From Blastopirellula marina DSM 3645 (GTDB lineage: Bacteria; Planctomycetota; Planctomycetia; Pirellulales; Pirellulaceae): 64,000 bases of DNA. The notes under the pieces were generated by a model that was not told where the DNA came from, searched no databases, and saw only the letters and a program-made list of their open reading frames with translations. Below, piece by piece: positions 9,372 to 44,501 of this stretch. The DNA is taken from positions 1,644,405-1,708,404 of the forward strand of contig NZ_CH672377.1 of the NCBI RefSeq assembly GCF_000153105.1, read 5' to 3'. The position numbers and the translations under genes were made by a program. Positions within the stretch are counted from its first letter, which is position 1, and each line of letters starts with the position of its first letter.

Positions 9372-9571
9372 TGGTGACCTCGCTTCGCCGATCAGGACCG
9401 TGTCTGCGCTGGAACTTTAGCGTTGTGACATTATACGGTATGATCGTCCGCGTTAAACCGAAATATTGAGCTTTGTCTCCCCCGCAGCCGACAGGTTGCC
9501 ATTTGCCGCTGGGGCGAGTGAAATAGAGCAACCGCAGGAGCTCTGTTTTTTATTTCTTGAGACTTGGCCGA

Positions 9572-10807
9572 ATGACCCGCAAACGACTGTTAGACCGTTT
9601 TCTCCGCTACGTTCAAGTTGATACCACGGCTGGAGTTCCGGGGGCAGAATACCCTAGTTCGAAGGGGCAATTGGCGCTCGGTAAACTGCTGGCGGACGAG
9701 ATGCGAGCCTTTGGGATCGCCAACGCCGAACAGGACGAATACGGCATCATCTACGCTGAGATTCCCGGCAATGTGGCGGACGCGCCCTCTGTCGCCTTTT
9801 GCGCGCATCTAGACACCTCGCCGGAGACAACCGGCGCCGGCGTGAAACCGCAGGTCATCCAGAATTACGAGGGCGGTGATATCGTATTGCCGGGCGACCC
9901 CAGCCAGGTAATCCGCGAAAGCGAAAATCCAGAGCTGGCCGACCTGCATGGCTGCACGCTGATCACCACCGACGGCACGACGCTGCTCGGAGGCGATGAC
10001 AAAGCCGGAATCGCCGTCATTCTGGAATTGGCCGAAAGATTGCTGGCCGATCCGCAGATGCCGCATGGTCCGGTCAAGATCTTGTTGACCTGCGACGAGG
10101 AAATCGGGCATGGAGTCGACCACGTCGATCTAAAGCGACTCGCGGCCGATGTTTGCTACACGTTGGACGGGGGAGGCGCGGACGAAATCAACGCCGAGAC
10201 TTTCTCGGCCGATATGGCGGTCGTCTCGGTCCACGGCGTCAACATCCATCCGTCGATCGCCAAAGGGCGAATGGTGAATGCGCTGAAAGCGGCCGGGATG
10301 TTTCTCGATCGCTTGCCGCGCGACATGATGTCGCCAGAGACGACCTCGGGCCGCGATGGTTTCGTCCACCCGGTTCAAGTGAAAGGGGGCGTCGCCGAAG
10401 TCGAAATCCAGTTCATCCTCCGTTCGTTCGATATGGCGGAACTCGCAACGCAGGCTGATTTGTTACGCTCGACGGCGCGCAGCGTCGAAGTCGATTTTCC
10501 TGGTTGCAAGCTAGCAGTCGTCACCTCGCCGCAGTACCGCAACATGCGCGAAGGCTTGGAAAAAGAACCGCGTGCGCTCGCTTATGCGATCGAGGCCCAC
10601 CAGCGGCTTTCTCGAACCCCCAAACAGGAAGTCATTCGCGGCGGAACCGATGGTTCGATCCTGACCGAACAGGGATTGCCGTCCCCGAATCTCTCGACGG
10701 GTCAGCACAATCCCCACTCGCCGCTGGAATGGGCCTGTCTGGATGAAATGGAGAAAGCAGTGGAACTTTTAATCTCACTTTTAGGGGTTTGGGCCGAGAA
10801 GAAGTGA
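9572..10807 (+). CDS. pepT: Peptidase T (tripeptide aminopeptidase)
   Basis: About 411 residues, the normal length for PepT. All M20B zinc-peptidase signatures are present: CAHLDTSPE (the metal His and the conserved Asp), GGDDKAG (bridging Asp), TCDEEIGHG (catalytic and metal Glu), the family-specific DGGGADEINAETFSAD, and near the end GGTDGS and a NPHSPLEW His ligand. The enzyme removes the N-terminal residue from tripeptides in the cytoplasm. The ATG at 9572 was taken over a TTG 15 bp upstream. It is monocistronic, and the sequence shows nothing unusual. Confidence 0.95.
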   Translation: MTRKRLLDRFLRYVQVDTTAGVPGAEYPSSKGQLALGKLLADEMRAFGIANAEQDEYGIIYAEIPGNVADAPSVAFCAHLDTSPETTGAGVKPQVIQNYEGGDIVLPGDPSQVIRESENPELADLHGCTLITTDGTTLLGGDDKAGIAVILELAERLLADPQMPHGPVKILLTCDEEIGHGVDHVDLKRLAADVCYTLDGGGADEINAETFSADMAVVSVHGVNIHPSIAKGRMVNALKAAGMFLDRLPRDMMSPETTSGRDGFVHPVQVKGGVAEVEIQFILRSFDMAELATQADLLRSTARSVEVDFPGCKLAVVTSPQYRNMREGLEKEPRALAYAIEAHQRLSRTPKQEVIRGGTDGSILTEQGLPSPNLSTGQHNPHSPLEWACLDEMEKAVELLISLLGVWAEKK

Positions 10808-10981
10808 TGGCGCCGCTAGCTTGACGCTTCCCGATTCTGGCGCCTCCTGCGTTTTTAGGGGAAACAGGTAAACTCGTGAGCCCTTCGGTTCCGAAGATTC
10901 ATCACGTAAGCATGCCGGCAATGCTTATGGTCACCCCTGATATGCGGCGCCAGGCGTCGAAGCCGGAAGGAAAGAAAATCT

Positions 10982-11872
10982 GTGCGACTCTCGATCATCA
11001 TCCCGGCGCTGCATGACGCGGCGCTGCTTGAAGAGACGATGCTGTCGGTGCTAGAAAATCGCCCCGCCTACGCCGATGTTGTTGTCGTTCACACCGGTTT
11101 TTATACCGATCCGTACGAGCTGGCCGGCGAAGTCAAATTCGTCGAAGCCCGCAGTGCCGTCACCGATGCTCAGTGCTGGATGATTGGCGCCGCTGCTTCC
11201 AGCGGCGAGATCATTCACCTGCTTGCGTCTGGCGTTGTCGCCACGGCGGGCTGGGCTGACAGCATACGGTCAATGTTCGCCGATCCGGCAGTTGCCGCTG
11301 TTTCGCCTGCGCTCCGCTGTGACGACGCGATTGCGTCGATCGGCGTCGCGGCCGACTCGCTCGGCTATCGGCGATTTCTGCGGCTGGAAGAGGGGAAATC
11401 GCTGGTCGGGCCAAGTCGCCTGGCGGCGTTTTATCGCCGTAGTTGGCTAGAGCCGCTACTTCCAGCCGCTGCGTCGCTTGGTGATCAAGCCGCCGATCTG
11501 GACATCGCCTACTCACTGAAGGCGCAAGGTCTGCTCAGCCGGCCGACCACCGCGTCGCAGTTGATGGTGAAACCTGCCGCACTGCAACAAGATCGCGATT
11601 TCGCCGCGGCCGCAGCCGCCGAGCGCCTGCGAGCACGGCATCCGCAACAGTTGGATACGACCAGCTACTGGAACCAGGTGATCGCCCAAACATTGAAGGC
11701 GCTGCCTAGCCCCAAAGCGATCGGCGTCTTGCTGGGGCACCTCGGCGGCGCTCGCGGAGAACGTCCGGTCGCGCTGGAACCAGCCGAGATTGACCAGCAC
11801 GACGCTCCGGCGACGATCCGCATGCCGCAGCGACCAACATCGCAATCCAACACCGACCGCGCCGCCGCCTAA
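10982..11872 (+). CDS. Glycosyltransferase family 2-like protein
   Basis: About 296 residues from a GTG start. The opening RLSIIIPALHDAALLEETMLS, then ENRPAYADVVVVHTG, is the first Rossmann-like half of a GT-A glycosyltransferase of family 2. The usual DDxS sugar-nucleotide aspartates are not obvious and the normal DxD position reads LLASGVVATAGWADS, so it may be a divergent or inactive transferase. The C-terminal ~60 residues are low in structure and rich in P, Q and N. A clear terminator follows. The acceptor and donor cannot be inferred from the neighbours. Confidence 0.6.
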   Translation: MRLSIIIPALHDAALLEETMLSVLENRPAYADVVVVHTGFYTDPYELAGEVKFVEARSAVTDAQCWMIGAAASSGEIIHLLASGVVATAGWADSIRSMFADPAVAAVSPALRCDDAIASIGVAADSLGYRRFLRLEEGKSLVGPSRLAAFYRRSWLEPLLPAAASLGDQAADLDIAYSLKAQGLLSRPTTASQLMVKPAALQQDRDFAAAAAAERLRARHPQQLDTTSYWNQVIAQTLKALPSPKAIGVLLGHLGGARGERPVALEPAEIDQHDAPATIRMPQRPTSQSNTDRAAA

Positions 11873-11906
11873 CGCGGCCAACCACCCGAGCAATCCTTCG
11901 AGACCC

Positions 11907-11932
11907 ACCTGCGACCGCACGCAGGTTTTTTT
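11907..11932 (+). terminator. Rho-independent terminator of the glycosyltransferase gene
   Basis: The stem ACCTGCG/CGCAGGT with a six-base loop is followed by seven T, 34 bp after the stop codon. A second hairpin without a T run (stem CCCGACCAG/CTGGTCGGG, 11962-11990) lies just after the end of the convergent oxidoreductase gene. Confidence 0.88.
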
Positions 11933-12009
11933 ATGCGCCCAGGGAAGAGCGGCTTGGGTCGCCCGACCAGCCTGTTCCTGACTGGTCGGGTCGCCCAGCA
12001 ATCCGTTGA

Positions 12010-13320
12010 CTACACGGTCCAGTCGCGCGTTCCCCGCGAACGGAGCAAATTGGCCTCGTCGTCGCCGACAAATTCTTCCTTCACCGGATCCAACGTCAGC
12101 TTGCGCTGCAAAATCCAGGCAATCGCCGCGGCATGGCTCGCGATGTGCGAACGTCGCATCACGTCCTGATTGGCGGCGGTCATTTCACGCGTTCGCATGC
12201 AGTCGAAGAAGTTGCGAGCGTGGGTCGAAACGTCGAGACCATTTACCCGTTTTTTCGCCTCCGGCAACTGCTTGCGCAGCGACTCCGGCTCGATGGCAAT
12301 CTCGCCGCTATCGCCGGTTTCGACCCAACCCTGATCACCAATAAAGCGGACCGGACAAGTGCCAAGCCGCGTAATATAGTGCGGTTCGCGTTTGCCGAAC
12401 GGCTGCGGCAGAAAGTCGAGCACCAGTTTCACGCCGTTGGCGTAATGACACACGATGTTCTCTTGGCTCGGCACATATTCAATCGGCATCGTGTCATCGG
12501 ACTGATTCGCCCATTGGCACAAGTCGACCGTATGGGCGCCCCAGTCCAACAGCCGCGCACCGGAATCAAAATCCCATTGTCCGCGCCAACCGCCGCCGAC
12601 ATATTTTTTGTTGTAAGGACGCCAAGCGGCCGGGCCAAGCCACATATTCCAATCGCAGACATCTTTGGCCGGCTCCGCTTCAGCTGGCAGCCAACTGTTC
12701 TCTAGCACTGGATTGTAGACCGAAGCATGCAACGTATGCAGCTTGCCAAGTTTACCCGAGTGCGCGATTTCGACCGCCTTTTTAAAGTTCGCAACGCTTC
12801 GGCGCTGCGTGCCTGCTTGGAAGACGCGCTGCTCGCGGTGCATCGTGTCAGCGAGCTTTTGGCAATCGGCGATCGTGATGCCGCACGGCTTTTCGCTATA
12901 AACATCTTTTCCAGCTTCGGCGGCCAGAATCGACGCGGCCGAGTGCCAACGATCGCCGGTCGCGATCAGGACCGCGTCGATGTCTTTACGAGCGAGCAGT
13001 TCGCGAAAGTCTTGATACAGCACGCAATCGGCGTTGCCATAGTGCGAGTCAACCAAGGTTTTGCCGGCGTCGCGGCGACTTGCCTGCACGTCAGCGATCG
13101 CGACGCATTGCACATCTTGGAACGGCAACATCGCTTTCAGATCGTACGTGCAGCGGGGACCAATTCCGATGACGCCGAGGGTGATCTTATCGTTGGGAGC
13201 AACTTGGCCATCGGCGCCATATACGGTCGACGGTACGATGGTCGCCAGCGAAGCGGCCGTGACCGCCGCGGTCGAAGCGACGAGAAAATCTCGTCGCGAT
13301 GATTGATCAGAAGCAGTCAT
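12010..13320 (-). CDS. Tat-exported Gfo/Idh/MocA family oxidoreductase
   Basis: About 436 residues from the ATG 13318-13320; a longer in-frame start 45 bp upstream is less likely because the Tat signal then would not be N-terminal. The signal has the twin arginine SRRDFLV followed by an Ala-rich hydrophobic stretch. Mature sequence: the NAD(P)-binding GVIGIGPRC turn, then the characteristic SEKPCG lysine motif, then the alpha/beta C-terminal domain. Such periplasmic Gfo/Idh proteins are abundant in planctomycetes and are thought to act on sugars or polyols with a tightly bound cofactor. The gene lies 66 bp downstream of the FecR/LamG gene on the same strand, so it may belong to the same unit. 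Confidence 0.9.
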   Translation of the reverse strand: MTASDQSSRRDFLVASTAAVTAASLATIVPSTVYGADGQVAPNDKITLGVIGIGPRCTYDLKAMLPFQDVQCVAIADVQASRRDAGKTLVDSHYGNADCVLYQDFRELLARKDIDAVLIATGDRWHSAASILAAEAGKDVYSEKPCGITIADCQKLADTMHREQRVFQAGTQRRSVANFKKAVEIAHSGKLGKLHTLHASVYNPVLENSWLPAEAEPAKDVCDWNMWLGPAAWRPYNKKYVGGGWRGQWDFDSGARLLDWGAHTVDLCQWANQSDDTMPIEYVPSQENIVCHYANGVKLVLDFLPQPFGKREPHYITRLGTCPVRFIGDQGWVETGDSGEIAIEPESLRKQLPEAKKRVNGLDVSTHARNFFDCMRTREMTAANQDVMRRSHIASHAAAIAWILQRKLTLDPVKEEFVGDDEANLLRSRGTRDWTV

Positions 13321-13386
13321 GAGGCGTTTTCCTTTGCAAAGGGGTGGGTAACTTTGAAGTCGCATCCGTAAGCGTGAAATCGTGGA

Positions 13387-14922
13387 TCAATTCGGTCCGT
13401 GGGGGAGCGTTTCTCCGGGATGCTCGAAAAGGTAGCGAATCGCTACCTCGTCTAACGCGCGCCCATAAAGCTGGACGTCATCGAGCTCTCCCCCCAGGAA
13501 TTGCTCTGCTTGGGCATGATTGGAAGGAACGCGCCCCAAGTAGGCGGATGTAGGGTTCTGTAATTGAATGGGAGCAATTGCCCGCGTGTTGATGACTCCC
13601 CCCATTCTTTTGGGTTCGATCAGCGCTCGACCATCCCGGTAAAGAGTGACGCTGCCGCCGCTGACCGAGACGGCGACTTGGTGCCAGCGATCAGGCTGCC
13701 AAGGAGCTACGCTCGCCGAAATCCGATCAAACCGATCTCCCTGCTGCCAACCATAGTAGAGCCAATTCTCTTCCAGCTCAAATTGAATACGTTGTTGGGC
13801 CGTGCCGTCTGAAACGGAGAAGACGATATCGTCCGCGTTTCGCACCCATGCGGTGAGCGTAAAAGCGCTGGCGCCGGTCAGCGCCGACAAATGCTCGCTA
13901 AAGTCGACAAAGCCATCGGCGCCCAGTTCCAAGGCCTGGCCCGCTTTCCCTGGTCGCGAACGCCGGCTGGTCGACATGTTCAACTTGCCATCGAATTGAT
14001 GAGGGGAACTGTCGACAACGTTGGTGCTGTCGGCGCTGTCGTCCAATCGCCAGTGCGCCAGTAGGCGGGGATCGGCGGCGCCTCCTTGAATCGACGTGAT
14101 CTCGCCTGACGAATCAATCGCGGCCGATTCTCCGGCGCTCAGCGACTGGATACGATTGGCTCGACCGGCGCTTGACAAATACAAATCGACCAGCCCGTCG
14201 ACAACGTTGATCTCGGCGGCGCCAGACTGCTGACTGACCGACAAGTCAAACTCGGTCCCTAAGTCAACAACTTCCATCGACGCGGTGCCGACGGCAAAAT
14301 CACGAGCGCTTTCAGGAGCATGCACTCGCACGGCGCCATAGTTCAAAAATCCCCGCAGCGGCGAGTCAATTGCGAACGACGCGGGGCCATCAATGTTTAC
14401 CGTCGCGCCGCTGCTAAAGGTCAATTCGATCGTGCCAGCGTCAAGATTGATCCAACCTTTCTCGAGCGCAGCGCCAATCTTTAGGGCGCGACCAAAAGGG
14501 TCGCTCCATTTCGTACCGGGGCCGATCGACGTCAAAGTTGCGATGGCGACATCTTGCGTCGAATCGCTTTGGACGCCGAGCCCAAGCGGAAAACCGATGA
14601 ACAGCCCGACCAACAAAGCGGCGATCGCCAACAGCCAGCCATGCCGCTGGAGAGAACTGGCTCGGCTTGATTTCGGATCGAGCGCGGGAGTTTTATTTTC
14701 AGCGGCAGCAATTGCGGCAAGCGGATCGTCTATGCCGGGAGTCGCCGCAAAACGCCAAGCCAAGTGCGCATCGATCGCCTGATGACGGACGAATAGGTCG
14801 AGCGCCTCAGCATCGTTTTGCAGCAACGCGTTGAGCTGAGCCTTCTCTGCGGCGGAAAGTTCGGCCTGATCCATTCGCTTCAGCAACTGCGCTAGTTCGT
14901 CATTCGGCTGACGCTCACTCAT
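13387..14922 (-). CDS. FecR/LamG membrane protein, partner of the adjacent ECF sigma factor
   Basis: 511 residues. The N-terminal ~95 residues are cytoplasmic and resemble the anti-sigma-like helical segment (ELAQLLKRMDQAELSAAEKA). One membrane helix follows at about 97-120 (WLLAIAALLVGLFIGFPLGL). Next comes a FecR domain with the beta-rich LTFSSGATVNIDGPASFAI and VVDLGTEFDLSV segments. A C-terminal LamG/concanavalin-like domain spans about 290-500 (HWRLDDSADS, FTLTAWVRNADD, WHQVAVSVSGGSVTLYRDG). The stop of the sigma gene overlaps this ATG by four bases, which supports translational coupling. I infer a membrane sensor whose outer LamG domain may bind a glycan or protein, with the N-terminus holding the sigma factor. 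Confidence 0.88.
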   Translation of the reverse strand: MSERQPNDELAQLLKRMDQAELSAAEKAQLNALLQNDAEALDLFVRHQAIDAHLAWRFAATPGIDDPLAAIAAAENKTPALDPKSSRASSLQRHGWLLAIAALLVGLFIGFPLGLGVQSDSTQDVAIATLTSIGPGTKWSDPFGRALKIGAALEKGWINLDAGTIELTFSSGATVNIDGPASFAIDSPLRGFLNYGAVRVHAPESARDFAVGTASMEVVDLGTEFDLSVSQQSGAAEINVVDGLVDLYLSSAGRANRIQSLSAGESAAIDSSGEITSIQGGAADPRLLAHWRLDDSADSTNVVDSSPHQFDGKLNMSTSRRSRPGKAGQALELGADGFVDFSEHLSALTGASAFTLTAWVRNADDIVFSVSDGTAQQRIQFELEENWLYYGWQQGDRFDRISASVAPWQPDRWHQVAVSVSGGSVTLYRDGRALIEPKRMGGVINTRAIAPIQLQNPTSAYLGRVPSNHAQAEQFLGGELDDVQLYGRALDEVAIRYLFEHPGETLPHGPN

Positions 14923-32393: not shown

Positions 32394-33113
32394 TTATTCT
32401 CCAAAGCTACGTAGCACCAAACGCCGTTCCAGCGGCTGTAACCCGCGAGCATGCTGTTGCGAGCAACGTTTGAACGCGCGGGTTTCGTCGGGATGCACAA
32501 CCGCTTCGTCCTTCATGACGAACCAACTGACATCTTCCGAATAGGGATAGCTCGTCAGCGACCCCTCGTAGTAATACCAACTGTCGAAGTCGGGCTCGCT
32601 GGAACCGCACACTCGCGGAAAGAAGCGAGCCGGCGTCACGCTATGGGTTGGTTTGCCGTCCCCCTTTTCCGTACCGCAGCCTTCCTCGTCTCCGAGGGAA
32701 GCGATGATCGCCTCGTCGCCGCAAAGTCGTTCGGCTTCTTCACTTTCTCGATAGAGAACGCCGAGCACCACCTTGGGATCCGAGCCTTCGCCATGCACCG
32801 GGATATGCACAAAGTGAACTTCAAATTGACTCGGCGAATCTCCACCCACGACATGCTCGGACAGCTCATGAATATGAATCTTGACCAGCTTGTACTTGCG
32901 ACCACGAAAGACGATTTTCGGCTTGGTTCCGCCCAATTCAAAATTGCCGTGAGACGACTCCACTCCATCAAACTTGCCGACAAAGCTTTGCGTGGCAGGG
33001 TAACGAATCGTCAGCAGATCCTGCGGATTGGCGATTTGCAGCGCGGACTCGGGTTTTAACTTGATCGGCGATTGGCTCGACATAGATATAACTTTCGACG
33101 GGGCATTGCTCAT
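32394..33113 (-). CDS. Alpha-class carbonic anhydrase (cytoplasmic form)
   Basis: About 239 residues if the ATG at 33111-33113 is used; an ATG ten codons later is also possible. The zinc ligands of alpha-CA are in place: H80 and H82 in KIHIHELSEH, H100 in FEVHFVH. The gatekeeper Glu (E86 in SEH) and Thr (GSLTSYP) are kept, as is QSPI at the N-terminus. The usual TTPP reads TSYP. It would interconvert CO2 and bicarbonate. No signal peptide is seen although bacterial alpha-CAs are usually periplasmic. An insert of ~35 residues carries two cysteines. Confidence 0.8.
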   Translation of the reverse strand: MSNAPSKVISMSSQSPIKLKPESALQIANPQDLLTIRYPATQSFVGKFDGVESSHGNFELGGTKPKIVFRGRKYKLVKIHIHELSEHVVGGDSPSQFEVHFVHIPVHGEGSDPKVVLGVLYRESEEAERLCGDEAIIASLGDEEGCGTEKGDGKPTHSVTPARFFPRVCGSSEPDFDSWYYYEGSLTSYPYSEDVSWFVMKDEAVVHPDETRAFKRCSQQHARGLQPLERRLVLRSFGE

Positions 33114-33299
33114 GAGGGCGAAGTACTGATCCAAGACTACCCCGCTATCGAGGCATAATCAACTCGCGTTTTTAGCAACGCGAGTAAGTCGGCCAATCTT
33201 TTCTTTCACCTCCTGTTGTTGCATACGATAGTAGGCGCCGCTCGATCTTTTCCTTGACCGTCGCGTTGACGAAGAAGACAGCCGGCGTACGCTTCCAAC

Positions 33300-34918: not shown

Positions 34919-36037
34919 CTAATTCGCCGTACTGGGTCTCATATTGTCGCACACGACCGCCATCTGGATCGGCAACGGATCATCCAGCGACTCAGGCTGA
35001 ACGGATAGAGGATAGTCTCCCCACCACTCGCCGGCCGCCCAATAGCCGATCGCGCAATTCGCATCACGGATCAGGCGGCAGCCTGACGCCAATAGCTCGT
35101 GCCAGCGAGATTCTGATTTCGGCACGCCCACTTCGCCGACATAACCATGCACGCCGTTTCGCCGACACCAACTCAGAAACGGCGTTAAGACCTGCTGCGG
35201 ACGTTGAGAAAGTTGCGGATCGCGAGCCGCTTCCTGGTCGAATGTCAGTTCGTATTTCCCACTCCGATCCGCATCGAAATAGGCGTGCGCTTCGTAAATC
35301 GTTTTGTTAGACGGATCGCGTATCCACGGTTCCGGTCCATTCACCTCTTCAAAGTTTTGCGCTGTCGCCCATTCGTTGCCACAGACGGTGATCCAACGGT
35401 CAGGATCCAGCTCACGTATCGCGGCGACGGCTCGATTCGACGCTCGTTTCCAAACGTGCGCCGCGATGTGGTGCGGCTCATTCATCAGGCCGTAGGCGAT
35501 GACGGTCGGATTGTCCGAAAGCCGTTCCGCGAGTTTGCGCCAAACATCGGCAAGATCGTCTTCTGACAGCAGCAGTGCGCCGTCCGTCGTCTCTCCCAAG
35601 ACCGCTTCGATCGGGCGACCGCTACGGTAAACGCGGTAGCGACCATAATTATGAAGATCAAGAATTGCCGTTCCTTTCGCTTCTGCGATCCAAGAGAGCA
35701 ACAACTGAAGATTGCCGCAGTAGTCAGCTTGCAATGGGCCGCGCAATTCAGGCTGCAGGCGTTCCCAACTGATCGGGATGCGAAAAGCGGTCACCCCCCG
35801 CTCGCAAAAGTAGCGAACCGTCGCTCGACTATTAAACGTATAGTCTCGATGCAAATCGCCAAGATTATATTGAGAAAAATCTTGAATATTGGTTCCAAAC
35901 TCGGCTCCAGCCAAATTCAACGTTGTACGAAACGGCAATAGTGAGTCTTGCGAATCATGATTTGTAGAACACCCCCAGCTCACCATTCCCATGGCTGCAA
36001 TGTTCATTTTCAGAAAATATCGCCGATCCGGTTTCAC
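34919..36037 (-). CDS. Glycoside hydrolase family 5 glycanase, Tat lipoprotein
   Basis: 372 residues; GTG start with GGGAG about nine bases upstream. The N-terminus holds both a twin-arginine motif (DRRYFLK) and a lipobox (VSWGCS), so a folded lipoprotein is expected on the periplasmic face. GH5 features: IPISWERLQPE, then the acid/base GLMNEPHH and the nucleophile GYVGEVGVPKSE, with AILDLHNYG between. It would cleave beta-1,4-linked glucan or mannan. It diverges from the BcsA-like synthase 478 bp away. I infer it trims or edits the exported polymer, as the GH8 enzyme BcsZ does in proteobacterial cellulose operons. Confidence 0.88.
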   Translation of the reverse strand: MKPDRRYFLKMNIAAMGMVSWGCSTNHDSQDSLLPFRTTLNLAGAEFGTNIQDFSQYNLGDLHRDYTFNSRATVRYFCERGVTAFRIPISWERLQPELRGPLQADYCGNLQLLLSWIAEAKGTAILDLHNYGRYRVYRSGRPIEAVLGETTDGALLLSEDDLADVWRKLAERLSDNPTVIAYGLMNEPHHIAAHVWKRASNRAVAAIRELDPDRWITVCGNEWATAQNFEEVNGPEPWIRDPSNKTIYEAHAYFDADRSGKYELTFDQEAARDPQLSQRPQQVLTPFLSWCRRNGVHGYVGEVGVPKSESRWHELLASGCRLIRDANCAIGYWAAGEWWGDYPLSVQPESLDDPLPIQMAVVCDNMRPSTAN

Positions 36038-36515
36038 TCAAACGTTCTCCCAAGTCACCCCCCGATTTCTCTACAGGGGACAAATCGATAGCAAAAGCAT
36101 GATCTAAGAAATGAAAGCTCTCGTTGCTTCATTCTAGCTCTCCACAGAGCCGGGTCGAACGGACTTTTGCTCCTCCTCCACACGCAACATAAGCCACCTC
36201 CATCCTGGGCGGCGAGCATTTCTTGACCTAAAATGCCGGCTTTCGAACAAAAAATGTGCATGCGTTGCTTATTTGCTGCGCTAAAGCGCACGATCACTAC
36301 ATGCTCCCCGGAACCTTTCCCCCCAAACCGAACAGAATAGCGATGACCGCTATGGTTGTTGATCGCGTTATTCCTGGTCAATAAGGGGCTGGTTACGGGG
36401 TTTGTAGCGGATACGAACAACTCCACCAAAAGAGTTAGTTCTTGGCCCATCGTTTGCTTTACGCATCTTCTGTTGCGGAAAAGATACCTACTGGAACATT
36501 TGAGAGGGCGAAACC
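36038..36515. other. Intergenic region between the GH5 and synthase genes
   Basis: 478 bp containing the divergent promoters of the GH5 and BcsA-like genes. The ORFs in it have no recognisable protein pattern and I treat them as chance. Nothing else identified. Confidence 0.5.
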
Positions 36516-39500
36516 ATGTCTCGGGCCGGATCTAGGAAACACTCATCGAATCGTATAAGGCAAATAGCGATTGCCTTCGCAGCAATCGCGGCGATTACGT
36601 ATGTCTTGTACAGAACAACCTTTTCCATAAATATGGAAAGTTATTACTCACTCTCCGCTTCACTTCTACTATTAGGCGCCGAGTGCTGGGGCATTCTCTT
36701 AATGTTCCTCTACTTCTTTCAAATTTGGGATTCCTCGGATCCGGATCCCGTCCCCCCGCTGAAGAACCGCACCGTGGACGTCTTTCTGCCGACGTATAAC
36801 GAAGACGTGCAGTTGCTGCGTGGTTCGATTAACGCGCTCAATCAGCTCGACTATCCCCACACGACGTACGTTCTGGACGATGGCCGCCGCGCAGAAGTGG
36901 CGGAATTGTGCCGGGAAATGGGGGTCGAATACATTTCGCGCGAAAACAATATGCACGCCAAAGCGGGCAATTTGAATAACGCGTTGGATCGCACAAGCGG
37001 CGAGTTTGTCGTCATTTTCGACGCCGACCATGTTACACGTCCCAACTTCATTTCGCGAACGCTCGGCTATTTTGCGGACGAGAAGCTCGCGTTCGTACAG
37101 ACGCCCCACGCGTTCTACAACTTCGATAGCTTTCAATCGCATATCGATTACAAACGCGGCATTTATTGGGAAGAAGGCCAGCTCTTCTACAACGTTATCC
37201 AGCCTGGCAAGAACAACTGGAACGCCAACGTCTTTTGCGGCAGCGCCGCGATCTTTCGTCGTTCGGCGTTGCAAGACGTGGGACTGATCGCGACCGAGAC
37301 AATCACCGAAGACATGCACACCGGTCTGCGAATTCACGCCAAGGGCTGGAAATCGCTCTTCGTGAATGAGCGCATGATCTCGGCTCAGGCCGCGCCAGAT
37401 ATCACGACGTTCACTTCGCAGCGACTTCGTTGGGGCGAGGGAAATCTGAGCATTTTCGCCTACGATAATCCGCTAACGATGAAAGGTCTGACGCTCGGCC
37501 AACGCTTGAACTACCTGGGTTCGATGCTCGGCTGGACGACGGGCCCCGCCAAAGCGGTGTTGTACGCGACTCCGATCTTGATGCTGTTTACCGGCGTTTC
37601 TCCGGTCGGGCAGTTTAGCATCGCGCTTGGTTTGATCACGCTTTTCTATATGCTGACAACCTTGTGCGCGGTCAAAATCGCCAGTGATGGTTATGGCCGA
37701 CTCTGGGATATTGAAGTTCAGGCCATGACCAACTTTTGGATTCAATGCCGCTGTTTGACGCGCGCTTTGTGGCAACGTGGTCGCGGCAAGTTTGTGGTCA
37801 CCAGCAAACGGGGTCGCCAAAGCGCCAACATCACCGCGTTGATCGCGCCCCATATTGTCTTGATCGCACTAGGAGTCAGCGCGATCGCTTGGGCGACGGC
37901 GAAGATCTTTCTCGGCGTCAGTTCGGACTATTTTGGTCTGATCGTGGGGGGAGCCCTGATTGCGATTCAATCGATGATGGCCTTTCAGGTCATTCGGAAA
38001 TCGCTGCGCCCGGCCGACAAACGCTTCTCATGGCGCCATCCTACGAATGAAGTCCACGTCCGTTACCAGGCCGATGCCCTTGCGGGACAAGCGGTTAGCC
38101 TGGACGTCAACGAAACCGGTCTGGGCGTCGTCGTCTATCAAGCGCTCCCCGTCGGCTCGCACGTCGACCTGACGCTGTCGACCACGCAGCGCACCCTGCG
38201 CTGCCAAGGGGAAGTCCGCAGTTGCCAGCAATTCAACGGCGGGCGAACCGGGCTCCAAGCGTATCGGATCGGCTTTAAATTCGTTGATCTGACCGGTCAG
38301 GCAATGAGTGACCTTTGGTCGATTTCGGCGGAAACCGCCGTGGAGAGACAATACCAGCGATTGGACGCACGGTTCTCACAACCGCTCGATCCGAAGACTT
38401 GCCGTTTGCCGCTGGAACTCGCCTGCGACGCGGCTTCGCCGGTGGTAGCGACCGCCGTGTCGAGCACCGTAGAAGACAACTCGCTCCTATTCGAATCGAA
38501 GAGCTTGCTACCGCTGAACGAAGAGCAATATTTCCGGATTGACTCGCCGGCTGGACAACTGACCGGCCGAGGCAAACTGGAGCAGACGCCGAAGCTGCAC
38601 GAATATCGACTCTTTTTTAACAAGTTCGATGGTCAATCGCGCAGTATTCTGAAAAGCATTCTGACCCTGGGAAGCGAATCAAACGTCGCGAAAGTGGTCA
38701 ATCCTATCGCTACCAGCACGCGGAGCCCGCTGCTCCGACCGGCGATTGAATCGGGTTGGCTGGCGCTTGCCGCTTCGGTGCTTTGCATCGCTTCGGCCTG
38801 GTATCTCTGGAACGACAACTACTTCCTCTCCTATATCGCGCAGAGCGAAACGCTCACAATCGAGGATCAACGACGAGCCGATACCATTCTGACCAAGCTG
38901 CTTACTTCCCAAGACACGCTCCACAATCCAACCGTCCTATTCGACGCCCGAGCGGTGTTAGAAATGATGGGCGACTCGGATCGCTTGGCGAAGTTGGAGG
39001 AGTTAATCCTGGCGGATTATCCGCGCAATACCGGCTTGAAGCTGGCACGCGCCAACCGTTTGCTAAAGACCAAGCAGACGTCCGCAGCGCTGGCCGAGTT
39101 CAAAGCGATTGAAACCGATCTGAACTCCGGCATCTTGTCAGGCACGCCCGAGGAACAGATCAACACTTTCCTAGGAACGGCTCGCAGCGCCAGCGATTTG
39201 AACGACATTCCCCTCGCGATCGCCGCCTACCAACAGGCGCTCGATCGGCGGCGCGACCCACAAGCAGCCCTGGAGTTAGCCAATCTGCTTGTCGATCAGG
39301 AAGCGTATGACGACGTGCGACGCCTGCTGTCGATTCTTCCGGGTGGATATGAGTCGCGCCTGATTCAGGCTCGTCTCGATTTTGCCGATGGAAATATCGA
39401 TCAGGCGTTAACTTCCCTGGAGACTTTAACGAATGAGCATCCTACCGACCACCTGACGCGTCGGCTCTATGCCGAATCGTTGGCGCAGACTGGACAGTCC

Positions 39501-40067
39501 GATCTGGCGATCATTCAGTTCCAAACGCTGGTCCAATCCGACTACGAAACGCAGGCGATTCAAAAACGTGTCGCCGATCTCATGATCGCCGACGGACGTT
39601 TCGCAGAAGCGGCGCCGATCCTTGACCAACTGGCGATCGACGCCGTACAGGATGACCAGTTTTGGGCGACCTATGTAACCGCCGTACGTCGGCTGAAAAG
39701 GTTAACGCCGACGACCCAAACGACGATCGACGAGATCTATCAACAATTGGTGACGATCGAAGGATCCTCGCTAGATCTGAAAGCGGAGCTTGCCGAATAC
39801 TTTGCGAACGCCGGCGCCGGCGACAAAGCTTCACGCTTACTAGCGCTCTGCGTAAAGCAGGTTCCAGAGAACTTGGCGATGCGAAAGCGCTACGCCGAAG
39901 TGCTGCATGACGCAGGGCAGTTCGTCGCGGCCGATGAGCAATATCAATTGTTGCTCGACGCCTCGAAGGGGGGTCTGCCGGAGCTCAAGCCGGTGAACGG
40001 CGAAAAGGTTTCAACTCCGCCGAAACGTCGCCCAGTGATCTCCTTGGCTCACGGCCTGTTGCGATAG
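36516..40067 (+). CDS. bcsA: BcsA-like cellulose synthase catalytic subunit fused to PilZ, a second PilZ-like domain and periplasmic TPRs
   Basis: 1183 residues, far longer than the 700-870 usual for BcsA. ATG with GAGGG upstream. Two membrane helices at about 15-33 and 45-70. The GT2 domain spans ~85-310: DDG at 121-123, DAD at 169-171, TED at 264-266 and QRLRW at 302-306, so the catalytic set is complete. More membrane helices lie at about 335-500, and the gating-loop-like FVVTSKRG near residue 427. A PilZ domain follows (about 503-605), but RxxxR reads RHPTN and DxSxxG reads DVNETG, so c-di-GMP binding is doubtful. A second PilZ-like unit (about 628-718), one membrane helix (about 747-768) and a long TPR array follow. 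The topology puts the TPRs in the periplasm. No BcsB gene is present. Confidence 0.93.
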   Translation: MSRAGSRKHSSNRIRQIAIAFAAIAAITYVLYRTTFSINMESYYSLSASLLLLGAECWGILLMFLYFFQIWDSSDPDPVPPLKNRTVDVFLPTYNEDVQLLRGSINALNQLDYPHTTYVLDDGRRAEVAELCREMGVEYISRENNMHAKAGNLNNALDRTSGEFVVIFDADHVTRPNFISRTLGYFADEKLAFVQTPHAFYNFDSFQSHIDYKRGIYWEEGQLFYNVIQPGKNNWNANVFCGSAAIFRRSALQDVGLIATETITEDMHTGLRIHAKGWKSLFVNERMISAQAAPDITTFTSQRLRWGEGNLSIFAYDNPLTMKGLTLGQRLNYLGSMLGWTTGPAKAVLYATPILMLFTGVSPVGQFSIALGLITLFYMLTTLCAVKIASDGYGRLWDIEVQAMTNFWIQCRCLTRALWQRGRGKFVVTSKRGRQSANITALIAPHIVLIALGVSAIAWATAKIFLGVSSDYFGLIVGGALIAIQSMMAFQVIRKSLRPADKRFSWRHPTNEVHVRYQADALAGQAVSLDVNETGLGVVVYQALPVGSHVDLTLSTTQRTLRCQGEVRSCQQFNGGRTGLQAYRIGFKFVDLTGQAMSDLWSISAETAVERQYQRLDARFSQPLDPKTCRLPLELACDAASPVVATAVSSTVEDNSLLFESKSLLPLNEEQYFRIDSPAGQLTGRGKLEQTPKLHEYRLFFNKFDGQSRSILKSILTLGSESNVAKVVNPIATSTRSPLLRPAIESGWLALAASVLCIASAWYLWNDNYFLSYIAQSETLTIEDQRRADTILTKLLTSQDTLHNPTVLFDARAVLEMMGDSDRLAKLEELILADYPRNTGLKLARANRLLKTKQTSAALAEFKAIETDLNSGILSGTPEEQINTFLGTARSASDLNDIPLAIAAYQQALDRRRDPQAALELANLLVDQEAYDDVRRLLSILPGGYESRLIQARLDFADGNIDQALTSLETLTNEHPTDHLTRRLYAESLAQTGQSDLAIIQFQTLVQSDYETQAIQKRVADLMIADGRFAEAAPILDQLAIDAVQDDQFWATYVTAVRRLKRLTPTTQTTIDEIYQQLVTIEGSSLDLKAELAEYFANAGAGDKASRLLALCVKQVPENLAMRKRYAEVLHDAGQFVAADEQYQLLLDASKGGLPELKPVNGEKVSTPPKRRPVISLAHGLLR

Positions 40068-40097
40068 TCGCCGCGGGTGAGCTTAGATAACCAACGC

Positions 40098-40131
40098 AAA
40101 GGGTCTCCCTGAAACAGGGAGACCCTTTTTT
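40098..40131. terminator. Bidirectional Rho-independent terminator between synthase and TPR/barrel genes
   Basis: A 14-bp stem with AGGGTCTCCCTG on one arm closes on a three-base AAA loop. T runs follow on the plus strand; A-rich sequence on the other side lets it work for the converging gene too. Confidence 0.93.
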
Positions 40132-40132
40132 A

Positions 40133-42082
40133 TTAGGGAAACCACAAAATGAGATAGGCGTAAGCGATGTCATTGTTGTAGACGCCTGATCGAGTCAGGT
40201 GCGCCTCGGCGCCAGCCCCCAGACAGCCATAGATATCGCAGTACCCCTTCACGCGGCCGATGTTGTAGAACTGGCCTTGCGAGTCCCACTGGGCGCGATA
40301 TTCGATCGACGCCCAGCGCTGCGGCGCTCCGTCAAAGTAAAAACGACTGAAGTGATGCTTCCACTCAAACCCTAGGCTGACTTGCGAAAAGCCGGACGGA
40401 GCAAAATAAGGATGGACGGTGCCAAAAATGCCTGGCCCGGGACCAAAGATCGAATCTTCGTCAAACGACAGGAAGTCATAGTCGGCCATCATGTTCAATT
40501 CGTTCGGCGCTTCGTGCAAACGAATCTTGTTATGAACGAAGAAGTCATGACGGAAGTTGTGATCCGAATAGCCGATGAAGCGGTACTGGGATTCGACATC
40601 CCACCGCGAAAGCGGTTTGACGTGACCCGACAAGCGACCGCCGCCCATGTAGATGTCTTGGCGAATCGATTCGCTATTTTCGGCGACGTTCTCTAAAAAT
40701 CCGCCGATCCCAACCTGAGCGTCGCAGCAGATATCCCAGTTGACGCCGACGTCGAACACCGGCCGCGATTTGAAGCCTTCGTCAAAGGTTTGCACGTCCA
40801 TTTCGGCGAAGTAGGTGAAATCTTCCAAAAACCGGTCATAGATGCCGGCGCCAAAAGAGTTGCCTAAAACAGTTCCGGTCGTTTTCGGATCATAGACCAG
40901 GTGAGAGTACTCAAACCGGAGGTACTCGTCTTCGTCGCCAAACGGGATCTCGGCGCCCCATTCAAAGTTCAAACGATTGATATTGGCCAAACCGTTACGT
41001 CCGCTCTGCCCGAAGTAGAGGAAGTCAAAAGTCCCCCGCGGCTCCAACTTGCGTGAAGTCCCTTCCATCGCGATGCCCGCCGCGTAATGGCAAGGATTTA
41101 CATCTAGCAACTGCGAATAGGCGCCCATCGCCGCACGGGTGCGATTTTTGGTCGAGTATTGCTGTCCCAAGTCAAAGTAGGCGTCTTGATTAGAAGGTTC
41201 GATCGAAATCAGACTTTGATATTCGCCGATCGCTTTGGTAGGGCGCCAATCTTTCCAGGCCTTCGCTTGGCGTTCTACCGAAATTGCGCCGGTCAAGTCA
41301 TGCGACTCGTAACGGCTCGGATCAATTGAAAGCGACGGTCCGATCATCGGCGGGCTATGCGGAATCGGCGAGTGTCGCGGCGCTTGCTCTAGGAGTACGG
41401 CGTAAGCGCCGTCCCCTTGGACGCGTCCTTCGGTCGCATACATCAAGCGCGCCGCTTCCCGCTGAGCGGTGACAAAATTCGGCATGTCCCGGCTCAGATT
41501 GAAGTAGACCTCTTGCGAGTCGTGATACCGTCCCATTTGGTTGAGCACGCGTCCCAGCCCGATTCGCGCCCTCGCGTTGGTTGGCGACATGGTCAGCACG
41601 CTTCGATAAAGATCCGCCGCTAGAACGAACATCTCTTCGTTGTTGGTCGAGACGTAGGCGTCGGCCAGGCGAACGATAAACGCCAGCTGATCGCCGCTCA
41701 TCGCCCGCGCTTGCTCGAGAATCTCCACGGCCAACTGCGGCATGCAATCCGACAAGGCCTCGTCCGCAACACGGACCGCCGTTCCCAGCGATTCGCTGCA
41801 GAGCACCATCAACTTGACCTTGGCGCCTTCGGCGACCATCGTATCGCCAGCGACGCAAGCGGCCTGGTACATCACAAAATAGCCGCGCGGCAATTGCAGT
41901 TTCGACGCTGGCTCAAAGTTCCGCAGCAACTCCATCGCTTCGATCGACTGTCCCTTTTTGACCAGCAAGTAGGCATGTTCAATTCGGAGCTGCGACATCA
42001 GCAAACTCTCGAAAGGCCGGGTCGCACGCAGTTGATCGATCAGCGCGACGGCTTCGTTGTATCGATGCTGCTTGATCAACAT
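40133..42082 (-). CDS. BcsC-like TPR/outer-membrane beta-barrel protein, C-terminal part (frameshifted)
   Basis: 650 codons from the first in-frame ATG, but the TPR pattern continues upstream in this frame as GYEAYLR before the Met, so the ATG is not a real start. It is the downstream part of the gene at 41979-43805. TPRs run to about residue 330; then the sequence turns into alternating aromatic beta strands such as LNFEWGAEIPFG, YLRFEYSHLVYD, FTYFAEMDV, YRFIGYSDHNFRH, VSLGFEWKHHF and ends AYAYLILWFP, with the terminal aromatic expected of outer-membrane barrels. I infer the exporter pore of the polymer made by the convergent synthase, as BcsC. Downstream is the bidirectional terminator. Confidence 0.85.
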   Translation of the reverse strand: MLIKQHRYNEAVALIDQLRATRPFESLLMSQLRIEHAYLLVKKGQSIEAMELLRNFEPASKLQLPRGYFVMYQAACVAGDTMVAEGAKVKLMVLCSESLGTAVRVADEALSDCMPQLAVEILEQARAMSGDQLAFIVRLADAYVSTNNEEMFVLAADLYRSVLTMSPTNARARIGLGRVLNQMGRYHDSQEVYFNLSRDMPNFVTAQREAARLMYATEGRVQGDGAYAVLLEQAPRHSPIPHSPPMIGPSLSIDPSRYESHDLTGAISVERQAKAWKDWRPTKAIGEYQSLISIEPSNQDAYFDLGQQYSTKNRTRAAMGAYSQLLDVNPCHYAAGIAMEGTSRKLEPRGTFDFLYFGQSGRNGLANINRLNFEWGAEIPFGDEDEYLRFEYSHLVYDPKTTGTVLGNSFGAGIYDRFLEDFTYFAEMDVQTFDEGFKSRPVFDVGVNWDICCDAQVGIGGFLENVAENSESIRQDIYMGGGRLSGHVKPLSRWDVESQYRFIGYSDHNFRHDFFVHNKIRLHEAPNELNMMADYDFLSFDEDSIFGPGPGIFGTVHPYFAPSGFSQVSLGFEWKHHFSRFYFDGAPQRWASIEYRAQWDSQGQFYNIGRVKGYCDIYGCLGAGAEAHLTRSGVYNNDIAYAYLILWFP

Positions 42083-43805
42083 GCGGAGATACGCTTCGTA
42101 GCCAAAAAACCACGCCGGGGTTCTTGTTCAGGATCTCGCGATAGAGCGATTCGGCCCGTCCAAATTCTCGTCGATCGACGTGCAATTGCGCCAAGCGAAA
42201 CTTGGTCCCGAGTTTGTCAGGATAAGCCATCAAGTACGAAGCGAGCACGCTTTCGGCAAAGTCGTATTGCCCTAGCTCTTGGAGAGCGCGGGCTTTGCCA
42301 TAGACGGCGCGGGCGTTTTCGGAGTCGATCATCAGCGTTTGTTCGAAGTCCGACAACGCTTCCAGATAGTTGCCAGAGCGATACATGATCTCGCCCATCA
42401 GCAGCGTACGCTCCCATTCCGGAATGACGCCGCAAAACTCTTCCATCGCCTGCAACGCCACCGGCAGCTGAAACTCGCCCACGCGAGCGCGAATCAGCAG
42501 CGTCAAGATCTGGGCTTCTGGTTCGATAAAGCGGGCCGCTTCTTCAAGCAAACACAGGGCCGCTTGAAAACGTTCTTCATCCAACAGCTCTTCGCCCAAC
42601 TCTAAAATCGTCGGAACGTTCTGCGGATCGAGCTGCACATAGTGGTTCACCATGTTCCGCATCGATTCAAAACCGCCAACTGTCGCATAGCAGCGAAGCG
42701 CCAGCTTCAGACCGTCATGCCCCAACACGTCCGTTTCCATTAGCGGAATGAGCAGCTGAATCGCGCCGGCCGGATCATTCAAATCGTATAGTATCGTTGC
42801 AGCGGAAACGCGGTTCGCATTCCCGAGATTGGCCGAACGCACATACTCGTTGAAAGTTTCCATCGCCAAAACGCGGTTGCCGGTTTGCAGATAGATGGAC
42901 GACAATCGCAACGCCGTCGAAATGTCGCTGGGATTTTGCTTGAGCTGTTGCTGCAGCAATTCGGACGCTTCCTCCAACTGATCTTTACCGACCAACAAAT
43001 CGGCCAGCGCCGAGATCGCTTCGATATTGCCGGGATCGAGTTGACCCACGCGGCGATAGTTGGTGACCGCTTGATCCGTTCGTCCCAAACGGGCCAAGAT
43101 GCCGGCATACTCCAAGCGACCTTCCACGTCGTTAGGAAAGACCTCCAACAAGGCCTCGAAACGCTCTACCGCTTGCGGAAGATCTCCCAAAGCGACCGAG
43201 TTGCGGGCCGACTGAATCAATATCTGACGTTGCGTATCGTCTCCCTCGGGAGCGCGCGGCGTATCGATGCCTTCCATCGGCCGGGGCGGGGGAATCTCGT
43301 TGGCAGGCGGATCGACCTGGGCGGCGACCTGGTGCTGTTTGATCAATCCAGGCGCCGACTGGCGCAAGTCCAATTTCAAAGGACGGATTGTCGGACCCGT
43401 CGCCTCCGGATCCGATACGCTCTCTCGCTTCTCTTGTTGCGGCGCAACCAGTTCAAATTGCACCGGCTTAACTGGGCGAGATTGTTGAGTCGCGTCCCCG
43501 TCCGCATTTTCCTTGTTTAGTTTTCGCAGCGGATTGACCGGTGCATTCGCGGCGGTAGGCCGCGGCAGATTCGTCGCGGCCGCTTTTGACTTGGGGGCGA
43601 CGTATTGGTAGAGGCCAGTTGATTGGGCCGCATCCCGGGGCGGCGCAGCGACGACAGTCTTCGCTGACCAGAGCGCCCCCAAGCTGACGACGGTCAAGAA
43701 ACAGCAACCGGCGAAGAGGAATCGGACGCCACGGTTCTCACCGGATCTTTTCGCACAAAGAGTCTGCTCGTGCCGAACTTGTCGATGTGAAGAATCGAAG
43801 TTCAT
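41979..43805 (-). CDS. BcsC-like TPR protein, N-terminal part (ends in a frameshift)
   Basis: About 608 codons from the ATG 43803-43805. A hydrophobic N-terminal segment (FLFAGCCFLTVVSLGALWS) is a signal or anchor. A Pro/Gln-rich linker follows (about 60-190), then at least eight TPRs, for example GDLPQAVERFEALLEVFPND and GRTDQAVTNYRRVGQLDPGN. The reading frame is lost inside a TPR at EILNKNPGVVF: the next residues here (WLRSVSPHVDQ) break the repeat, while the other frame gives GYEAYLRMLIKQHRYNEA. The cause is a T6 run (A6 at 42104-42109 on the plus strand); removing one base gives a single 1223-residue protein. The last ~35 residues here are therefore non-native. Confidence 0.88.
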   Translation of the reverse strand: MNFDSSHRQVRHEQTLCAKRSGENRGVRFLFAGCCFLTVVSLGALWSAKTVVAAPPRDAAQSTGLYQYVAPKSKAAATNLPRPTAANAPVNPLRKLNKENADGDATQQSRPVKPVQFELVAPQQEKRESVSDPEATGPTIRPLKLDLRQSAPGLIKQHQVAAQVDPPANEIPPPRPMEGIDTPRAPEGDDTQRQILIQSARNSVALGDLPQAVERFEALLEVFPNDVEGRLEYAGILARLGRTDQAVTNYRRVGQLDPGNIEAISALADLLVGKDQLEEASELLQQQLKQNPSDISTALRLSSIYLQTGNRVLAMETFNEYVRSANLGNANRVSAATILYDLNDPAGAIQLLIPLMETDVLGHDGLKLALRCYATVGGFESMRNMVNHYVQLDPQNVPTILELGEELLDEERFQAALCLLEEAARFIEPEAQILTLLIRARVGEFQLPVALQAMEEFCGVIPEWERTLLMGEIMYRSGNYLEALSDFEQTLMIDSENARAVYGKARALQELGQYDFAESVLASYLMAYPDKLGTKFRLAQLHVDRREFGRAESLYREILNKNPGVVFWLRSVSPHVDQAASIQRSRRADRSTACDPAFREFADVAAPN

Positions 43806-44501
43806 TCGTTCACCCCAAAAACCAGTGAGAAAGATGGTTGCGCATTTCAAGTAAAATGACCTCGCTTACCAGCGAAGGGAAATGTGATTTCCACCGGTTG
43901 AACGTGATCAATCCAAATAACAGATAGCCACTTGGCGTTCATTCAAGCCCGTCCCAAAACGGGCACAATGCAATTTCCAAGACCATCAGTCTCAGACGAT
44001 GCAATTCGGACCAAACGCAAAACCGAGCTATCCGTCCTTTGTTTCGACTGTCAATTACCACCAAATAAGGGTTTTTGGGGCGAGATATCAGAGTTCCCTG
44101 ATTTTTTGGAGATCCGCCGATTGAGGGGATTTTGCGCCCTTTAGGAGGCGATGTACGTGTACTGTTCTTACCGTAGAGGCCTGGCAGAATAATCGGAACG
44201 ACCAGCCCAGGCTTTTTTATCCACCCATCTCAACACCGATGCTTGCAACCACACCCCGCCAATGCGGCAATCCGCAATACCCACACAGGGGTTTTCGCAG
44301 GCGTAAAACCAAAGCGGTGACTCCAGCAAAAACGCGTGGTTAAGAGGAACGCGAAGCCGATGTCTGGGGTCACAAGACGAGGAGCTAGGCGTTGCAGAGC
44401 GACTCAGAGAATCGCTAAATCTAGTGACCTATCGGAGCGCGTGAACGGTCGCCGCAAAAGGCAGGGAGAACAGCCTGGGAGGCTTGCGGAGCCCCTTGCA
44501 C
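43806..44501. other. Intergenic region, no gene assigned
   Basis: About 700 bp upstream of the TPR/barrel gene, probably including its promoter. One short plus-strand ORF (43932-44144, 70 codons from TTG) has protein-like composition but no recognisable family. It ends 34 bp before a terminator-like hairpin. I do not call it a gene. Confidence 0.4.
44179..44218 (+). terminator. Terminator-like hairpin in the intergenic region
   Basis: GCCTGG (44179-44184) pairs with CCAGGC (44207-44212) around a 22-nt loop and is followed by six T. The long loop makes it weaker than the other terminators here. It would end a plus-strand transcript of unknown content. Confidence 0.4.

Follow-up and report, generated by a model that had tools for sequence, protein, structure and literature searches.

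Within a 64,000-nt stretch of Blastopirellula marina DSM 3645 (GCF_000153105.1, NZ_CH672377.1 positions 1,644,405-1,708,404; hereafter the window), positions 34919-43805 hold a gene set of ~9 kb for a GH5 endoglucanase-like protein, a BcsA-like synthase fused to tetratricopeptide repeats (TPRs) and a predicted outer-membrane pore. Our analysis points to a cellulose-type (Bcs) system for synthase-dependent exopolysaccharide secretion that does without BcsB, a standard partner of the cellulose synthases of proteobacteria, with a ninth transmembrane (TM) helix (TM9) and the TPR tail of the synthase substituting for it. We give this reading a probability of about 0.6. The GH5 and synthase open reading frames (ORFs) are divergent, and the pore gene lies behind the synthase, convergent with it (Table 1).

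The synthase, its tail and the missing Bcs components

The initial annotation had described the synthase as BcsA-like and fused to TPRs, and this was borne out. GT2, PilZ and TPR domains were found by Pfam within the single ORF, its PDB match was E. coli BcsA (E 3.5e-84), and eight BcsA entries took ranks 1-8 in the fold comparison of its structure model (Z 28.0-34.3 over 541-609 residues; mean pLDDT 81.5, pTM 0.64). Fold comparisons here and below were drawn from Foldseek's best 1000 chains, and families beyond that list may match as well. The BcsA motifs DDG, DxD, TED, QxxRW and FxVTxK are all present in the synthase. In alignment A3, which comprises 20 synthase sequences including the window's own, D121 and D122, D169-D171, T264-D266, Q302-W306 and F426, V428, T429 and K431 were invariant; the nearly invariant G123 was the only GT2 motif position that was not fully so. 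The gating-loop motif FVVTSK (residues 426-431) lies upstream of the PilZ domain, where R507 and G535 were invariant and R503, D530 and E533 were kept in at least 90% of the sequences. We take RxxxR plus [DN]xSxxG as the PilZ consensus for binding cyclic di-GMP (c-di-GMP); the synthase retains RxxxR, and its second motif, DxNExG, has N at the serine position. The synthase scored 392.4 bits against NCBIfam TIGR03030 (CelA), under the curated equivalog cut-off of 699.1, and 328.5 bits against NF008558 (BcsA), under the cut-off of 992.

By model and hydropathy, the synthase retains two TM helices N-terminal to the GT domain. The PilZ domain is followed in the model by a second beta domain; in the Brocadia relative L062, Pfam found two PilZ stretches, the better one at residues 630-714. 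TM9 follows the PilZ domains and precedes the TPR tail (the hydropathy limit for calling a TM helix was 1.6), and the fold-comparison rows for plant CesA extend to model residues 758-765, i.e. into this helix. Because one helix crosses the membrane after the PilZ domains, the tail would be periplasmic, provided that PilZ is cytosolic as in BcsA.

The initial annotation had stated that BcsB was absent and had named a homologue immediately outside the window and conserved with the set as evidence that would speak against its reading of the locus. PF03170 gave 0 matches at E≤0.001 in the whole genome, which is 99.59% complete, and the E. coli control was positive. At E≤0.01, this genome yielded one 61-position piece of a 2811-aa frame (18.7 bits, below the cut-off of 21), and 32 genomes picked for a synthase-family match, mostly of no stated completeness, yielded two 61-position pieces in all, this one and another in G001. 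As far as the sequences tell, neither piece resembles BcsB in size or coverage. The claimed absence of a GH8 BcsZ also held (PF01270, 0 matches at E≤0.001 in the genome; E. coli control positive), in a search whose control was positive in 3/14 genomes. BcsD (PF03500) had no match in this genome and none in any control genome either, and BcsQ (PF06564, which we take to be a ParA-like family) had three matches here but also matches in 14/14 controls. As far as BcsB and GH8 go, the layout differs from bcs types I-III, as had been proposed. No HlyD-type family was found among the 10 window ORFs scanned with Pfam around the locus, the extent of that search, and no MshEN-type family was among the 10 Pfam families of the synthase, which has PilZ instead.

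The GH5 assignment of the third protein was confirmed, and with a twin-arginine motif (RRYFL from residue 5) the protein is likely to be Tat-exported. Its designation as a lipoprotein is uncertain, the lipobox being poor by eye. Candidate catalytic glutamates lie in the motifs NEPH, starting at residue 186, and GEVG, starting at residue 301. At E≤1e-6 the protein had 36 PDB matches, 33 of them named endoglucanase, cellulase, EGI or endo-1,4-beta-glucanase; the 31 best matches, headed by 4lx4 (7.6e-46), all fall among these 33, and the other three are endoglycoceramidase II.

Table 1. Features of the gene set, in positions of the window.
Feature	Position	Strand	Evidence
GH5 endoglucanase-like protein, 372 aa	34919..36037	-	Pfam PF00150 (Cellulase) 3e-38, 132.3 bits vs cut-off 23.5
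BcsA-like synthase with TM helix and TPR tail, 1183 aa	36516..40067	+	ORF, Pfam, NCBIfam, PDB, structure model
GT2 catalytic region, residues 85-316	36768..37463	+	DDG 121-123, DAD 169-171, TED 264-266, QRLRW 302-306
PilZ domain, residues 502-601	38019..38318	+	Pfam PF07238 5.9e-07; RxxxR 503-507, DxNExG 530-535
Second beta domain, six strands, residues 632-704	38409..38627	+	Model secondary structure
Predicted ninth TM helix (TM9), residues 740-764	38733..38807	+	Model helix; hydropathy 1.62 over 743-761
TPR tail, residues 766-1150, ~22 helices, ~11 TPRs	38811..39965	+	Model; Pfam TPR families
C-terminal ORF of the pore gene, 649 aa, with 9 TPRs ahead of the barrel	40133..42082	-	ORF; structure model
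Predicted 16-strand outer-membrane beta barrel	40142..41038	-	Model strands, residues 349-647
N-terminal ORF of the pore gene, 623 aa, with signal, linker and ~11 TPRs, followed by the frame change	41979..43850	-	Pfam TPR_19 2.2e-29
Run of six identical bases where the frame of the pore gene changes	42104..42109	-	ORF frames; comparison with relatives

Several neighbouring features were recorded. A sigma-54-like site lies at 36443-36458, ~70 bases upstream of the synthase start; a conserved sigma-54 promoter was rejected, as the site is not at a fixed distance in relatives. A eukaryotic-type carbonic anhydrase domain (Pfam PF00194) is encoded at 32394-33134. Elsewhere the genome carries a second synthase-GH5 pair (L031 8383-13446; C1, ~560-565 kb), 62% and 61% identical to the first, with no pore beside it. 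The synthase gene is split into two overlapping ORFs in the relatives L034 (7637-11486) and L057 (4072-9193), the split in L034 falling near the PilZ region in a single-contig genome. L036-L038 were discarded as relatives of the synthase; their similarity is weak and they look like ordinary GT2 proteins.

The pore gene and the recurrence of the set

The convergent position, the TPRs and the predicted barrel of the pore agree with the initial annotation, although the protein is not encoded by one ORF as had been described; the gene is split at the run of six bases. The model of the C-terminal ORF (mean pLDDT 86.7, pTM 0.82) contains 18 helices and 16 strands, with one short helix between strands. 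Its first five fold-comparison rows are all polysaccharide pores: 4y25 (Z 26.2; listed as a polysaccharide secretin and presumably PgaA), PelB 9h80 (25.7), BcsC 6tzk (25.7), BcsC 9b8a (24.7) and 9b8h (24.5), after which Z drops to 17.0 in row 6. Against NF008520 (BcsC; cut-off 858), the two window ORFs scored 38.6 and 13.6 bits and an intact relative 62.8. By model and fold comparison, the pore is predicted to consist of a TPR arm and a 16-strand barrel of the BcsC/PgaA/PelB fold. The arm retains ~20 TPRs, nine of them modelled and ~11 estimated from the length of residues 207-587 of the N-terminal ORF.

The two pore ORFs overlap in different reading frames, and they are the only match to the barrel profile in this genome, which would fit a decaying locus whose pore is a pseudogene and whose polymer does not leave the cell through it. 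We consider this unlikely. A same-genus relative has an intact single pore ORF of 1180 aa, and others are intact too; identity to the intact relative is not reduced past the frame change (64% for the downstream ORF, 51% for the upstream one). The downstream ORF stays open for 649 codons, the genome retains both synthase-GH5 pairs, and a base-count error in the homopolymer would explain the split as well. From the sequence, the frame change may be either a read error or a recent mutation. A programmed frameshift is unlikely, because the six-base run is not at the equivalent place in two close relatives, L032 and L105.

Following a suggestion in the initial annotation, other planctomycetes were searched for the three-gene set. 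A scan of named genomes gave 28 loci, 26 with planctomycete names, one from a metagenome-assembled genome labelled Bacteroidales and one from an 'uncultured bacterium'. Fused-synthase loci made up 38 rows, or 33 non-redundant loci after removal of five near-copies; the count leaves out split or partial synthases (e.g. L034, L042, L052, L053, L057 and L066). The pore lay within 4 kb of the synthase in 25 of the 33 loci and a GH5 gene within 5 kb in 22. Gene order varied: the pore gene either follows the synthase convergently or precedes it on one strand or the other, and GH5 is on either side, sometimes twice.

The association also held across whole genomes of the phylum. The synthase profile matched 37/393 genomes at E≤1e-60, the barrel profile 35/393 at E≤1e-8, and both matched in 34/393 (Fisher p 2e-44; the test takes the genomes to be independent, an assumption that does not hold). 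The synthase profile occurred without the barrel in G152, G261 and G430, and the barrel without the synthase in G177. The 37 include a synthase-like ORF that belongs to neither lineage (L139, in G430), and three of the 34 two-profile genomes (G209, G229 and G245) have BcsB next to the synthase, which is an ordinary BcsA there. Synthase and pore are far apart in the single-contig genomes G457 and G397, and ~19 kb apart in G363. TPR proteins and GH5 genes are common in planctomycetes, and a lone BcsA paralogue might have come to lie near unrelated TPR and cellulase genes. Such chance neighbourhood is hardly credible given the pore and GH5 counts above and the joint presence of both profiles even where the genes are far apart; because the set recurs in many genomes, it is more than a chance grouping.

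The pores measure 1398, 1497, 1292 and 1553 aa where the synthases measure 1760, 1764, 2053 and 2145 aa, and mostly 1122-1344 aa elsewhere. Because the ~20-TPR arm is kept and the pores of long-tailed genomes are no shorter, the tail would not be making up for a pore arm that has become shorter. The Gemmataceae-type synthases of L051, L055, L111 and L121 have 2053-2268 aa. In the L051 synthase, Pfam found TPRs as far as residue 2222 of 2260 but no barrel family; in L111 and L121 the pore is located elsewhere in the genome.

BcsB or a small TM-TPR gene in anammox loci

At E≤1e-5, BcsB was found in 4/393 genomes of the phylum, all of one family (f53), and all four carry a BcsA of another tree group. 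Their loci (L130-L133) have the order BcsA, BcsB, a 341-344-aa gene and then TPR proteins; the 341-344-aa gene is GH8 in both loci tested (L130 and L131). A profile of the TM-TPR module had no match among the 43 ORFs of at least 90 aa in these four loci. The BcsB-type anammox operons of L131 and L132 are flanked by genes (9127-13101 and 10336-14121) for large TPR proteins of 1324 and 1261 aa that also contain a SPOR domain; these might be a pore that has diverged or an additional component of the envelope.

Brocadia-type synthases lack the tail and have 728-846 aa, apart from shorter ones in L061 (630 and 642 aa) and one split copy in L059. A gene of 135-161 aa encoding a TM stretch and TPRs lies behind the unfused synthase in 9/9 distinct Brocadia-type loci examined, without BcsB; G302, with the same synthase type, is outside these nine. 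In L061 the small gene is ~2 kb behind the synthase. Its TM stretch comprises 17-18 uncharged residues in each of the nine. The barrel protein is directly next in L062, L136 and L137, and ~7-9 kb further on in L134, L135 and L143; in G219 the distance is ~28 kb, and G302 has it on a separate contig. GH8 adjoins the pore in the three loci tested (L062, L134 and L143). Two tandem synthase genes occur in L059, L060, L061, L122 and L136.

In a midpoint-rooted tree of 45 catalytic regions, 26 fused and nine Brocadia-type synthases group on a single branch (support 99/97), and the BcsB-linked BcsA sequences of anammox bacteria and proteobacteria (7) form another (100/98). Long branches were flagged for L139, L147 and L148. 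BcsB was seen in L130-L133 and is annotated in L147; the L145 and L146 records carry no annotation there.

To compare the small gene with the synthase tail apart from the repeats, we searched 771 ORFs with a profile of TM9 and its linker (residues 736-800, no TPRs). Ranks 1-4 were pieces of split or incomplete synthases, which serve as positive controls, and ranks 5-17 (13 rows) were all Brocadia-type small genes (E 0.003-0.2), ahead of the first unrelated ORF at E 0.57. Of three cuts of the TM-linker profile, this widest one was the cleanest. Homology by TPR match (best E 3.5e-12 in a set of 8) was rejected as an argument, since pore TPRs score equally high. The TM-linker part weakly suggests that the small gene is equivalent to the synthase tail. 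Because all nine unfused loci have the TM-TPR gene and the four BcsB relatives are without it, a TM-anchored TPR module appears, from gene content, to stand where BcsB stands.

Instead of cellulose, the polymer could be another beta-glycan, such as a mixed-linkage or modified glucan, made and exported by the same route, and the distance of the synthase score from the CelA cut-off leaves room for this. We take L149 to be bgsBA of S. meliloti, in which a periplasmic adaptor gene adjoins the synthase gene. Excerpts of PMC10374906 propose BgsA, a relative of BcsA, for a mixed-linkage glucan. Set against such a product are the retained BcsA motifs, the 33/36 endoglucanase-type or cellulase names among the PDB matches of GH5, the GH8 genes in 3/3 Brocadia-type loci and the position of the BgsA-type sequence outside the branch of BcsA and the planctomycete synthases. 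A non-cellulosic product is improbable in our view.

Proposed mechanism and relation to known systems

If BcsB has been substituted as we propose, the synthase would polymerise UDP-glucose to beta-1,4-glucan and extrude it through the TM channel that it forms itself, with c-di-GMP acting on PilZ as the control. TM9 would serve in place of the BcsB tail anchor. Behind it, the TPR tail would act as a periplasmic docking platform to hold the outer-membrane pore by its TPR arm, much as BcsC is held by the terminal BcsB copy in E. coli. The product would exit by the 16-strand barrel, and the GH5 endoglucanase would clear stray polymer, as GH8 BcsZ does elsewhere. TM9 in the anchor's place and the tail in the docking place is the simplest reading of the anatomy. 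BcsA with the BcsB tail anchor alone makes cellulose in vitro (PMC11470070, in excerpt). Excerpts of PMC11379886 report that terminal BcsB tethers TPR#1 of BcsC in E. coli, that BcsC TPRs bind a putative cello-oligosaccharide and that another cellulase can stand in for BcsZ; they give E. coli BcsC 19 TPRs.

The initial annotation had assigned the tail the BcsB/BcsC bridging role, by pairing with the TPRs of the pore. The BcsB part agrees with the alternation of TM-TPR and BcsB in anammox bacteria and so has indirect support; the BcsC part is not needed, given the ~20 TPRs of the pore. With a full-length TPR arm retained in the pore, the tail would replace BcsB and not BcsC. That BcsB has been fully replaced by a TPR module with a TM anchor, encoded separately in Brocadia and joined to the synthase elsewhere, that the envelope is crossed by TPR-to-TPR contact and that this constitutes a distinct Planctomycetota secretion type is a wider proposition, for which we see the odds as even.

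A different arrangement would need no BcsB equivalent, as in RiGT2 or plant CesA: the pore with its full TPR arm would dock directly on the TM domain of the synthase, and TM9-TPR would only recruit accessory proteins (e.g. GH5 or regulators). Excerpts of PMC10374906 judge RiGT2 to be BcsB-independent and state that plant CesA do not require BcsB; they also state that both lack the N-terminal TM helix that packs against BcsB, whereas here two TM helices precede the GT domain. The ~20 TPRs of the pore itself fit this arrangement, as do tails that range from one or two TPRs to those of synthases >2000 aa, and the plant CesA fold rows that reach into TM9, plant CesA having an extra C-terminal TM helix. 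It does not account for a TM-TPR gene in 9/9 unfused Brocadia-type loci and 0/4 BcsB loci, and we regard it as rather unlikely.

Several observations weigh against substitution of BcsB by TM9 and the tail. The pore is out of reach in 8/33 loci and GH5 in 11/33, some at contig ends, and in the B. marina genome the barrel profile matches the frame-split pore gene only. Tail length is very variable, the small gene having just one or two TPRs and the Gemmataceae-type synthases reaching 2053-2268 aa, and such variation does not fit a bridge of fixed length. The BcsB piece in G001 (a 2789-aa frame) scored 20.6 bits, or 21 with its neighbours, and so nominally reaches the cut-off of 21. The TM stretch of the small gene has a hydropathy of 1.31-2.26 and passes the 1.6 limit in only 5/9. 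The 13 small-gene rows of the TM-linker search include near-copies, and the L137 copy appears only at rank 24 (E 3.7); with the 760-820 cut an unrelated ORF stands at rank 7 (E 0.012), and with the 736-780 cut unrelated ORFs are mixed in after rank 12. By TPR match, the Brocadia small genes scored 45-33 bits against 57-32 for pore TPRs.

If the wider proposition above holds, Planctomycetota evolved their own coupling of a cellulose synthase to the outer membrane. In a lineage where a TM-TPR module alternates with BcsB, synthase activation and pore docking, both tasks of BcsB, come apart, and each becomes testable. The matrix polymers of planctomycetes and anammox bacteria are poorly known, and these organisms gain a defined set of candidate genes for a cellulose-like polymer.

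The gene set shares with Bcs types I and II the catalytic and PilZ layout of BcsA, a BcsC-fold pore with a long TPR arm and an endoglucanase partner. It differs in that no BcsB was found, TM9-TPR is fused to the synthase, GH5 stands where BcsZ is GH8, and gene orientations are mixed. The PgaA and PelB pores (Z 26.2 and 25.7) have the same fold, a 16-strand barrel preceded by TPRs; their synthases are not known to be of the BcsA type with a fused TPR tail. A systematic survey of exopolysaccharide operons reports BcsAB and BcsZC fusions, and no word starting 'planctomycet' occurs in its main text (PMC7112194, in excerpt). In the open-licence literature searched, we found no description of a BcsB-free system from planctomycetes or anammox bacteria, nor of a TM-TPR module standing in for BcsB, of such a module fused to the synthase or of its distribution in Planctomycetota.

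BcsB-less cellulose-type systems are already known, namely cyanobacterial type IV, BgsA/BgsB and RiGT2. S. meliloti BgsB/BgsA (L149) resembles the present system in that a BcsA-related GT2 is encoded next to a periplasmic adaptor, while the stretch examined contains no gene for BcsB. It differs in that BgsA falls outside this group in the tree and has no PilZ domain according to excerpts of PMC10374906, and in that the neighbouring gene is annotated as an RND periplasmic adaptor. E. coli NfrB/NfrA likewise pairs a BcsA-like synthase with a pore of TPRs and a 16-strand barrel, under c-di-GMP control; unlike here, NfrB has an MshEN-like domain in place of PilZ, no TPR tail is described for it and the glycan is linked to WecB, a ManNAc supplier (excerpts of PMC8669472). 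Cyanobacterial type IV bcs consists of XcsA, the HlyD-like XcsB and the endoglucanase XcsC, with a TolC model for export (PMC12430437, in excerpt). It shares with the B. marina set a BcsA homologue with PilZ, the lack of BcsB, an endoglucanase and another periplasmic part in BcsB's place; in the cyanobacteria, as far as these excerpts describe them, that part is an HlyD-like adaptor working with TolC, whereas here it would be a TM-TPR module working with a BcsC-fold barrel.

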